Shown here: positions 49,414-51,201 of the stretch, piece by piece
Position numbering within the stretch: position 1 is the stretch's first letter
How the letters are laid out: every line of letters begins with the position of its first letter
Notes under the pieces: model-generated
The model's input: only the letters and a program-made list of their open reading frames with translations
Database searches by the model: none
Told to the model about the DNA's origin: nothing
Made by a program: the position numbers and the translations under genes
Assembly: GCA_039182125.1 (NCBI GenBank)
Contig: JBCDCH010000002.1
Coordinates: 1-64,000, forward strand
Length of the DNA stretch: 64,000 bases
From: Planctomycetota bacterium
GTDB taxonomy: Bacteria; Planctomycetota; Phycisphaerae; Tepidisphaerales; Tepidisphaeraceae
Direction of reading: 5' to 3'

Positions 49414-51201
49414 ATGGACGCCACGATGACCGCACGGACACAATCGGACGCACCGACGTTGCCGCGCAAGCGGTGGGAAGTGCGGGCATGGCCGGACAAT
49501 TGTGCGGACCTGGCACGGGACACGGACGTCTCGGAGCTGGTTGCTGGGCTGCTCAAACAGCGCGGCATCCATGATGCGGAGGCGGCGCGGAAGTTCCTCA
49601 AGCCGACGCTCGCGGACCTGCTCGATCCGTCGGACCTGCCCGGCTGCGATGACGCCGCCCACCGACTCGCCAAGGCGCTGCGGCAGAACGAAAAGATCGT
49701 CATCTACGGCGACTACGACGTCGACGGCATCACCGCGTCGGCCATCCTCTACCACACCCTCACCCTCCTCGGCGGCGAGGTCGCGACGTACGTGCCCCAC
49801 CGCATCGAGGAGGGCTACGGGCTCAACGGCGATGCGGTACGGGCGCTGGCCGATGCGGGCGTGGACGTGATCGTCACCGTCGACTGCGGCATCACTGCGA
49901 CCGAGCAAGCCACCATCGCCGCTAATCGCGGCATCGACCTGATCATCACCGATCACCACACGCCCACACAAAAAGGGGACAGTCCCCTTTTCCCCGAGTG
50001 TTGCGCGATCGTGCATCCGCAGGCGGGCGAGGGATATGCGAATCACGACCTGTGCGGCGCGGGCGTGGCGTTCAAGCTGGCGTGGGCGGTGGGCCGGTGC
50101 GTGGCGGGCGGTAGCCGGGTGCATCCGAAGCTGCGCGACTTCCTCGTCGACGCGGTCGGGCTGGCAGCACTCGGGACCGTCGCGGACGTGGTTCCGTTGA
50201 CCGGCGAGAACCGCGTGCTTGCCCGACACGGACTGGCCGGGCTCAAGCACTCGAACCTCGACGGCGTCAAAGCGCTGATCAAGGTCGCCGGGCTCGACGG
50301 TCAGGATGTCGACGCGTTCGACGTCGGCTTCAAGGTCGGCCCGCGCCTCAACGCCGCCGGCCGGATGGGCCACGCACGGCAGGCGGTCGATCTGCTCACC
50401 ACCGCCCCGCTGCACGAAGCGGTCGACATCGCCGAGTTCCTCGCGAAACAGAACACCACCCGCCAGGCAACCGAGCGTGAGATCGTCGCCGCGGCGATCG
50501 AGCAGATCGAATCCGCCGGCTTCGCGACCGACGACCGCCGCGCGATCGTCGTCGCTGGCGATGACTGGCACCAGGGCGTGGTCGGCATCGTGGCCTCGCG
50601 GCTCGTTGAGAGGTACTGCCGGCCGACCGTCGTGCTCGCCGGCTGCGAGGACGGAAGTCTGACCGGCAGCGCCCGCAGCATTCCCGGCTTCGACCTCGCT
50701 GCCGCACTGGCGCATTGCACCGACCACCTCCAACGCCACGGCGGCCACGCGATGGCCGCCGGGCTCACGCTCGACGCGGCGAACCTCGACGCGTTCCGCG
50801 ATGCACTGACCGCCCACGCCAACGACCTACTTGAGCCGACGGACCTGGTGCCCCGCCTGCGGATCGACGCCGAGGCAACGCTCGATCAACTCACGCCGGC
50901 GTTGGTCAAACAGCTCGCCTTGCTCGGCCCGTTCGGCGCGGGCAACAGTCGGCCGGTGTTCGTGTTCCGCAACGTCCTGCTCGCGGCCGACCCGAGGCCC
51001 GTCGGCCGCAACGGCGACCACCTGCAGCTGCGCGTCCGCTCAGGACAAACGCCGATGAAGTGCATCGCGTTCAAGATGGGACCGCACGCGACGGAGCTCC
51101 GCCAAGGCCAACGGCTCGACATCGCCGGCGTGCCGTCACTCAACCATTGGAACGGAATGACCAGCGTCGAGCTTGAGGTTCGCGACATCACCGTCCGGTA
51201 A
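49414..51201 (+). CDS. recJ: Single-strand DNA exonuclease RecJ
   Basis: RecJ degrades single-stranded DNA 5' to 3' in recombinational repair and mismatch repair. At 595 residues the length is normal. All DHH-family motifs are present: motif I IYGDYDVDGITA (Asp100, Asp102, Asp104), motif II VTVDCGI (Asp157), the DHH motif LIITDHHTP (180-182), motif IV GTVADVVPL, and the DHHA1 pattern GGHAMAAGLT. Directly after the DHH motif, residues 186-193 (QKGDSPLF) are encoded by a palindromic element and are absent from typical homologues. Start ATG 49414 is used. ATG 49426 is an alternative. Confidence 0.94.
   Translation: MDATMTARTQSDAPTLPRKRWEVRAWPDNCADLARDTDVSELVAGLLKQRGIHDAEAARKFLKPTLADLLDPSDLPGCDDAAHRLAKALRQNEKIVIYGDYDVDGITASAILYHTLTLLGGEVATYVPHRIEEGYGLNGDAVRALADAGVDVIVTVDCGITATEQATIAANRGIDLIITDHHTPTQKGDSPLFPECCAIVHPQAGEGYANHDLCGAGVAFKLAWAVGRCVAGGSRVHPKLRDFLVDAVGLAALGTVADVVPLTGENRVLARHGLAGLKHSNLDGVKALIKVAGLDGQDVDAFDVGFKVGPRLNAAGRMGHARQAVDLLTTAPLHEAVDIAEFLAKQNTTRQATEREIVAAAIEQIESAGFATDDRRAIVVAGDDWHQGVVGIVASRLVERYCRPTVVLAGCEDGSLTGSARSIPGFDLAAALAHCTDHLQRHGGHAMAAGLTLDAANLDAFRDALTAHANDLLEPTDLVPRLRIDAEATLDQLTPALVKQLALLGPFGAGNSRPVFVFRNVLLAADPRPVGRNGDHLQLRVRSGQTPMKCIAFKMGPHATELRQGQRLDIAGVPSLNHWNGMTSVELEVRDITVR
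49971..49991. repeat. Palindromic element inside the recJ reading frame
   Basis: A 9-bp stem, AAAAGGGGA with TCCCCTTTT, has a three-base loop. It lies in frame and codes for the KGDSPLF part of RecJ. It resembles AAAAGGGGACAGTCCCCTTTT-type palindromes that occur in many copies in other bacterial genomes. Its copy number here cannot be judged from one window. Confidence 0.55.

Follow-up and report, generated by a model that had tools for sequence, protein, structure and literature searches.

How does a perfect palindrome come to be translated as part of a DNA-repair enzyme? This question is raised by the recJ gene in the planctomycete DNA analysed here (a stretch of 64,000 nucleotides, hereafter the window), where a short inverted repeat lies in frame just downstream of the codons for the DHH motif. 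A preliminary description of this locus had proposed that a dispersed REP/RAYT-like element inserted itself into an essential-type gene without breaking it. RecJ is generally not essential, and the term 'essential-type' is therefore not appropriate. The origin of the palindrome is the subject of the analyses below.

Results

The recJ gene, encoding the single-stranded-DNA-specific exonuclease, spans positions 49414..51201 on the forward strand as an open frame of 595 amino acids. Its product contains the Pfam domains DHH, DHHA1 and RecJ_OB, exceeds the cut-off of the recJ model TIGR00644 (519 bits against 397) and also matches RecJ proteins in the PDB, in line with the preliminary description that the frame is open and all other motifs are intact. 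The palindrome pointed out there is indeed a perfect inverted repeat of 21 bp, AAAAGGGGACAGTCCCCTTTT, at 49971..49991, shortly after the DHH codons (residues 180-182; 49951..49959, forward strand). Its left arm AAAAGGGGAC (49971..49980) and right arm GTCCCCTTTT (49982..49991, both given on the forward strand) are 10 nt long, 100% complementary and separated by 1 nt. As single-stranded DNA it is predicted to fold into a hairpin with a 3-nt loop at -8.1 kcal/mol (z -3.8 compared to shuffles); this fold, the perfect repeat and exact copies in other genomes mark it as a REP-type palindrome. It is flanked by ACAC-A and CCCC, with neither a GTAG nor a CGTC tetranucleotide at its foot on either end. 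The insert, at ca. 21 bp and without an ORF of its own, holds no transposase gene such as an IS200/IS605 insertion sequence would contain. In shuffles of the window, a 21-mer palindrome of the recJ type is expected 0.00 times, and perfect inverted repeats with arms of at least 10 and a loop of at most 3 were seen twice in the window versus 0.4 expected per 64 kb. As a separate observation, the window itself begins with a GC-rich perfect 20-bp palindrome, AGCCGCCCGCGCGGGCGGCT (positions 1-20), against an expectation of ca. 0.4 repeats of this kind in 64 kb.

At the protein level, residues 186-193 (49969..49992, forward strand) read QKGDSPLF, of which KGDSPLF is the product of the palindrome and adjacent bases. 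These residues fall into an alignment gap relative to RecJ proteins of solved structure, which have a shorter connection there, and behind them the protein picks up at the homologous residue with PECCAIVHP. The loop between the DHH motif and the IVHP segment (49960..50019, forward strand) gives a DHH-to-VHP distance of 23 residues. Compared to the usual spacing of 18-19, this amounts to a net gain of ca. 5 residues, so that the extra residues noted in the preliminary description do exist but fall short of the 7-8 that it implied. Conservation of these residues across RecJ proteins, which it had named as an argument against its reading, was not found, as the peptide KGDSPLF occurs in 0 of 134 other planctomycete RecJs. 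None of the six reading frames of the palindrome contains a stop codon, and a 21-bp insertion alone would therefore be unable to break the gene in whichever orientation it landed.

The preliminary description had further expected many copies of the palindrome in this genome and regarded uniqueness as an objection. In this regard the expectation failed, because exact AAAAGGGGACAGTCCCCTTTT is found nowhere else in the 4.13-Mb assembly (131 contigs) and the recJ copy is the sole one. The same 21-bp design, AAAAGG-N9-CCTTTT, has 13 matches in the genome compared to 0 for the reversed pattern, with AAAAGGTGTCAGGGTCCTTTT and AAAAGGGGTCAGGGTCCTTTT as typical sibling palindromes. At least one of these 13 matches is a chance occurrence, probably the one on contig C25, since the CysC segment that it encodes (EKGLVPFFEV) looks native. 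The RAYT or IS200-like transposase that had been suggested as worth searching for is present as well: a RAYT-like gene (L268) has siblings on either side at C11:66527 and C11:67285, and its product matches Pfam Y1_Tnp above the cut-off (E 2e-6) and NCBIfam REP_Tyr_transpos below that model's cut-off (E 1e-13). This resident gene is probably not the mobiliser of the recJ palindrome, because the siblings beside it share the core TGTCAGGGT and the recJ copy has the core GGACAGTCC. At its 3' end, the RAYT-like gene is overlapped by the REP there, which provides its stop codon (VEKGP-stop). On contigs C5 and C65, siblings form inverted pairs with a spacing of 62-63 bp in a REPIN-like manner. The pair on C65 (L272; positions 3592 and 3655, 63 bp apart) lies directly upstream of clpP and is open to the clpP frame.

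Several siblings are translated within other genes of this genome, too. In an ATP-dependent DNA ligase (L269, C13:15903), an in-frame sibling codes for QKVSGSF right before the DGE motif; in alignment with homologues this REP-coded stretch brings no net change in length, i.e., a segment has been replaced. In MnmG/GidA (L270, C35 ~36395), an in-frame inverted pair of REPs codes for most of a stretch of ca. 38 residues, where the E. coli structure has ca. 5 residues at the same place. In two other genomes, siblings code for KGVTSLF in PdxA (G020, L278) and KKGDSHLF in an SNF2 helicase (G019, L276). The replaced segment of the ligase and the net gain of just ca. 5 residues in RecJ show that insertion was not a clean addition of 21 bp, which points to trimming of the surrounding sequence during or after the event. 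Back in the window's genome, the first residues of a predicted lipoprotein (MKKVPDTFFRG...; L267, C6:43983) seemingly derive from a sibling REP.

Across a scan of genome contigs, the exact palindrome was found in at least 119 stretches from many phyla. Allowing up to 2 mismatches, there are between 25 and 168 copies in several other genomes, with 168 in Myxococcales bin5, 148 in Aminicenantes bin112 and 117, 107, 73 and 55 in the following ones, while backwards controls gave 0 or near-zero counts. RAYT genes are flanked by the exact palindrome in at least four genomes (G111, L372, L373 and L388). It lies on both sides of the RAYT gene in the Planctomycetota genome G111 (L065) and the Actinomycetales genome G455 (L388), whereas in G445 (L372) and G446 (L373, identical to L128) the palindrome flanks or sits within RAYT genes, with variants also present. 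In Gordonibacter (L376), an AATT-flanked variant, AATTGGGGACAGTCCCCAATT, is found on either side of the RAYT gene. The RAYT frames of L372 and L373 themselves contain the palindrome, and in L128/L373 it is in frame and codes for KGDSPLF again. In a comparison by motifs, the L372 and L373 RAYTs carry NHVH, WQ and YIELNP, in agreement with the motifs NHVH, W[EQ] and YIELNP given for subclass 2.1 (group 1) in Table 1 of PMC6006769; the RAYT of G111 has YIEWNP in place of the subclass 2.1 motif YIELNP. Outside the window's genome, most copies of the palindrome lie between genes: ORFs of at least 200 amino acids contain 45 of 133 copies compared to 110.6 expected. Still, exact copies in other phyla also lie in frame within or beside conserved domains, e.g., in a PARG-domain protein and, in an Omnitrophota genome, in an amidase and a radical SAM protein. 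The proposal of a dispersed REP/RAYT-like insertion thus holds with respect to the association with RAYT genes, the up to 168 copies elsewhere and the siblings, but not with respect to the exact copy, which is unique in its own genome.

What the preliminary description overlooked is that relatives have palindromic repeats of unrelated sequence in this same RecJ loop. In the window's family, the DHH-to-VHP segment varies in length and is extended, with a median of 30 residues (n=22) compared to 18 in others, and it measures 18-19 residues in 85% of 108 planctomycete RecJs from outside this family. In G001 (L038), the loop contains an in-frame (AGGACTG)n palindrome with 16-nt arms, and the 16-mer has 165 matches in that genome. 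In G015 (L040), it contains an in-frame (GTCGAAT)n palindrome with 18-nt arms, and the 15-mer has 9 matches there. A third relative, G025 (L010), carries an octamer-like repeat insert in frame that is imperfect and was read by hand, and it was therefore left out of the strong cases. The AGGACTG, GTCGAAT and octamer-like repeats apparently represent undescribed repeat families, and no RAYT gene was found in the ca. 3-kb loci around the three loop repeats. For a systematic comparison we defined strong inverted repeats by arms of at least 10 and a loop of at most 30 and set aside 21 recJ loci that failed the DHH filter. All three strong inverted repeats in the 22 recJ genes of the family fall into the DHH loop with 0 elsewhere. 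The 113 other recJ genes contain five such repeats, none of which lies in the loop. Only two of the loop cases are independent because the window's own copy had prompted the look. The chance of two independent cases in a loop that makes up ca. 7% of the ORF length is ca. 0.005, tolerance aside. These results suggest that the RecJ loop repeatedly takes up selfish DNA.

Discussion

With a probability of roughly 0.84, we read the recJ insert as a RAYT-type REP that came to lie in frame in a permissive loop just after the DHH motif. Under this interpretation, a RAYT, i.e., an HUH/Y1 enzyme, would recognize the REP palindrome as a single-strand hairpin, and the recJ copy would have arrived via RAYT-catalysed single-strand transposition. 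The mobilising enzyme was probably not the resident RAYT but one that has been lost or was foreign. The landing site directly behind the DHH motif would be a loop of the surface type. Since 21 bp is a multiple of three and the palindrome contains no stops, insertion would have added ca. 7 codons (ca. 5 net after local trimming) without interrupting the exonuclease frame. Several results weigh against this interpretation, namely the single exact copy in the genome, the different core of the REPs beside the resident RAYT, the missing GTAG/CGTC tag, the length change that differs from a clean 21 bp in RecJ and the ligase, and the depletion of the palindrome from ORFs in other genomes. The effect on RecJ was presumably neutral or mildly tolerated, and the copy may persist because the loop tolerates it. 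In this planctomycete family the loop is expanded and has received other palindromic repeats on at least two more occasions, which is most simply explained by a loop that tolerates inserts.

In several respects the palindrome behaves like known REP/REPIN systems with their RAYT (TnpAREP) enzymes: it is short, present in high copy number in several genomes and found beside Y1 (HUH) genes, and its siblings in the window's genome occur as close inverted pairs of 62-63 bp like REPINs. Unlike described REPs, it lacks the GTAG/CGTC foot tag and has a symmetric 21-bp AAAAGG...CCTTTT design. The recJ palindrome would work like a REP, but the missing tag places it outside the described GTAG and CGTC superfamilies. 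Intragenic REPs of both superfamilies have been described as inserted in frame, many of them in genes for replication and repair, among them DNA ligase (PMC3733652), which resembles what we see in recJ and the ligase of this genome. The same work reports REPs at approximately the same position of recB in two Xanthomonas species, and its text does not mention recJ. What differs from these REPs is that the RecJ loop holds unrelated types of palindromes in different genera. In-frame REPs also occur inside tnpAREP genes of subclass 2.4, and subclass 2.1 genes are reported to lack REPs (PMC6006769). The palindromes within the L128/L373 and L372 transposase genes are similar to the subclass 2.4 case except that the host RAYTs here have 2.1-like motifs and that the palindrome has no GTAG. 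Rickettsia palindromic elements are another precedent for palindromic selfish DNA in frame in protein genes, with RPE-4 and RPE-6 carrying the CGTC tag; a connection between CGTC repeats and RAYTs is not described there (PMC3733652). They share the in-frame insertion with recJ, the DNA ligase and mnmG of this genome but are unrelated in sequence and organism, and the recJ palindrome lacks their CGTC. Neither the palindrome nor the peptides or repeat motifs had a match in the literature that we searched, and none of the papers covered combined recJ with in-frame REP insertion.

The strongest rival explanation is that the DHH loop of RecJ acts as a hotspot and is not merely tolerant. Palindromes would then be attracted to it by features of the DNA at this locus or by selection favouring a longer loop, and they would perhaps modify RecJ activity, as has been proposed for REPs in other repair genes. 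The at least two sequence-unrelated palindromic repeats in the loops of G001 and G015, the imperfect repeat-like insert of G025 and the absence of strong inverted repeats outside the loop in the 22 family genes all speak for such a hotspot. The published concentration of REPs in repair genes and the recB site shared by two Xanthomonas species would fit as well (PMC3733652). However, the non-ascertained cases number only two, their chance value of ca. 0.005 sets tolerance aside, and the loop is long and variable throughout the family, which alone predicts survivorship of inserts there. We therefore consider an active hotspot unlikely, though it deserves to be taken seriously.

Beyond a permissive loop that received a RAYT-type REP, the hairpin might have been kept in recJ for a role at the RNA level, as attenuator or mRNA stabiliser. 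The RNA of this region does fold better than shuffles (z -2.4), but a scan revealed no intrinsic-terminator-like site in recJ, the palindrome has a mid-gene position, and its T-run extends over just four bases before CCCC. An effect of the hairpin on transcription is unlikely, and we find retention for an RNA-level role very improbable. We give still less credence to a palindrome that arose locally by chance or by point mutations in a variable loop without any mobile element; the uniqueness of the exact sequence in its genome and the varying loop length would be compatible with this idea, but the identical 21-mer is abundant in many phyla beside RAYTs, shuffles do not yield it, and its design recurs in the genome with no match to the reversed control. 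Finally, an assembly artefact, in which two fragments were linked through a repeat k-mer that is frequent in metagenomes, is conceivable for a genome in 131 contigs and a 21-mer that is very common in other environmental genomes, but it is hardly credible given that RecJ resumes at the homologous residue past the palindrome and was rejected as a chimeric assembly when tested, since both parts of RecJ match the same closest family (with L007, L008 and L011 among the best for each) and have equal GC3 (0.859/0.866).

If a RAYT-type REP did settle in a permissive loop of RecJ, selfish palindromes have here been turned into protein sequence of a DNA-repair enzyme. REPs within repair genes have been described before, and the pattern of a recurrent site in the RecJ loop is an interesting addition to them. 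It would form a natural series of replicates, in which one loop has received three or more palindromic repeats of unrelated sequence across different genera. Whether REPs occur in repair genes owing to chance tolerance, to targeting or to adaptive change would thereby become testable with one protein. A more far-reaching proposal has two parts: that the RecJ loop is a true recurrent acceptor which independently received several unrelated palindrome families, and that AAAAGG...CCTTTT defines a GTAG-less REP superfamily of 2.1/group 1 RAYTs. We put this forward tentatively and with more doubt than conviction. RAYTs with subclass 2.1 motifs, for which a survey from 2018 found no REPs (PMC6006769), would gain a candidate family in this palindrome. 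Apart from the RAYT-like gene on C11, the window's genome encodes a second Y1_Tnp gene (L003, C28:9291-9626), which has short repeats (GCGACGAAGTCGCCCGTGTG and similar) on either side.
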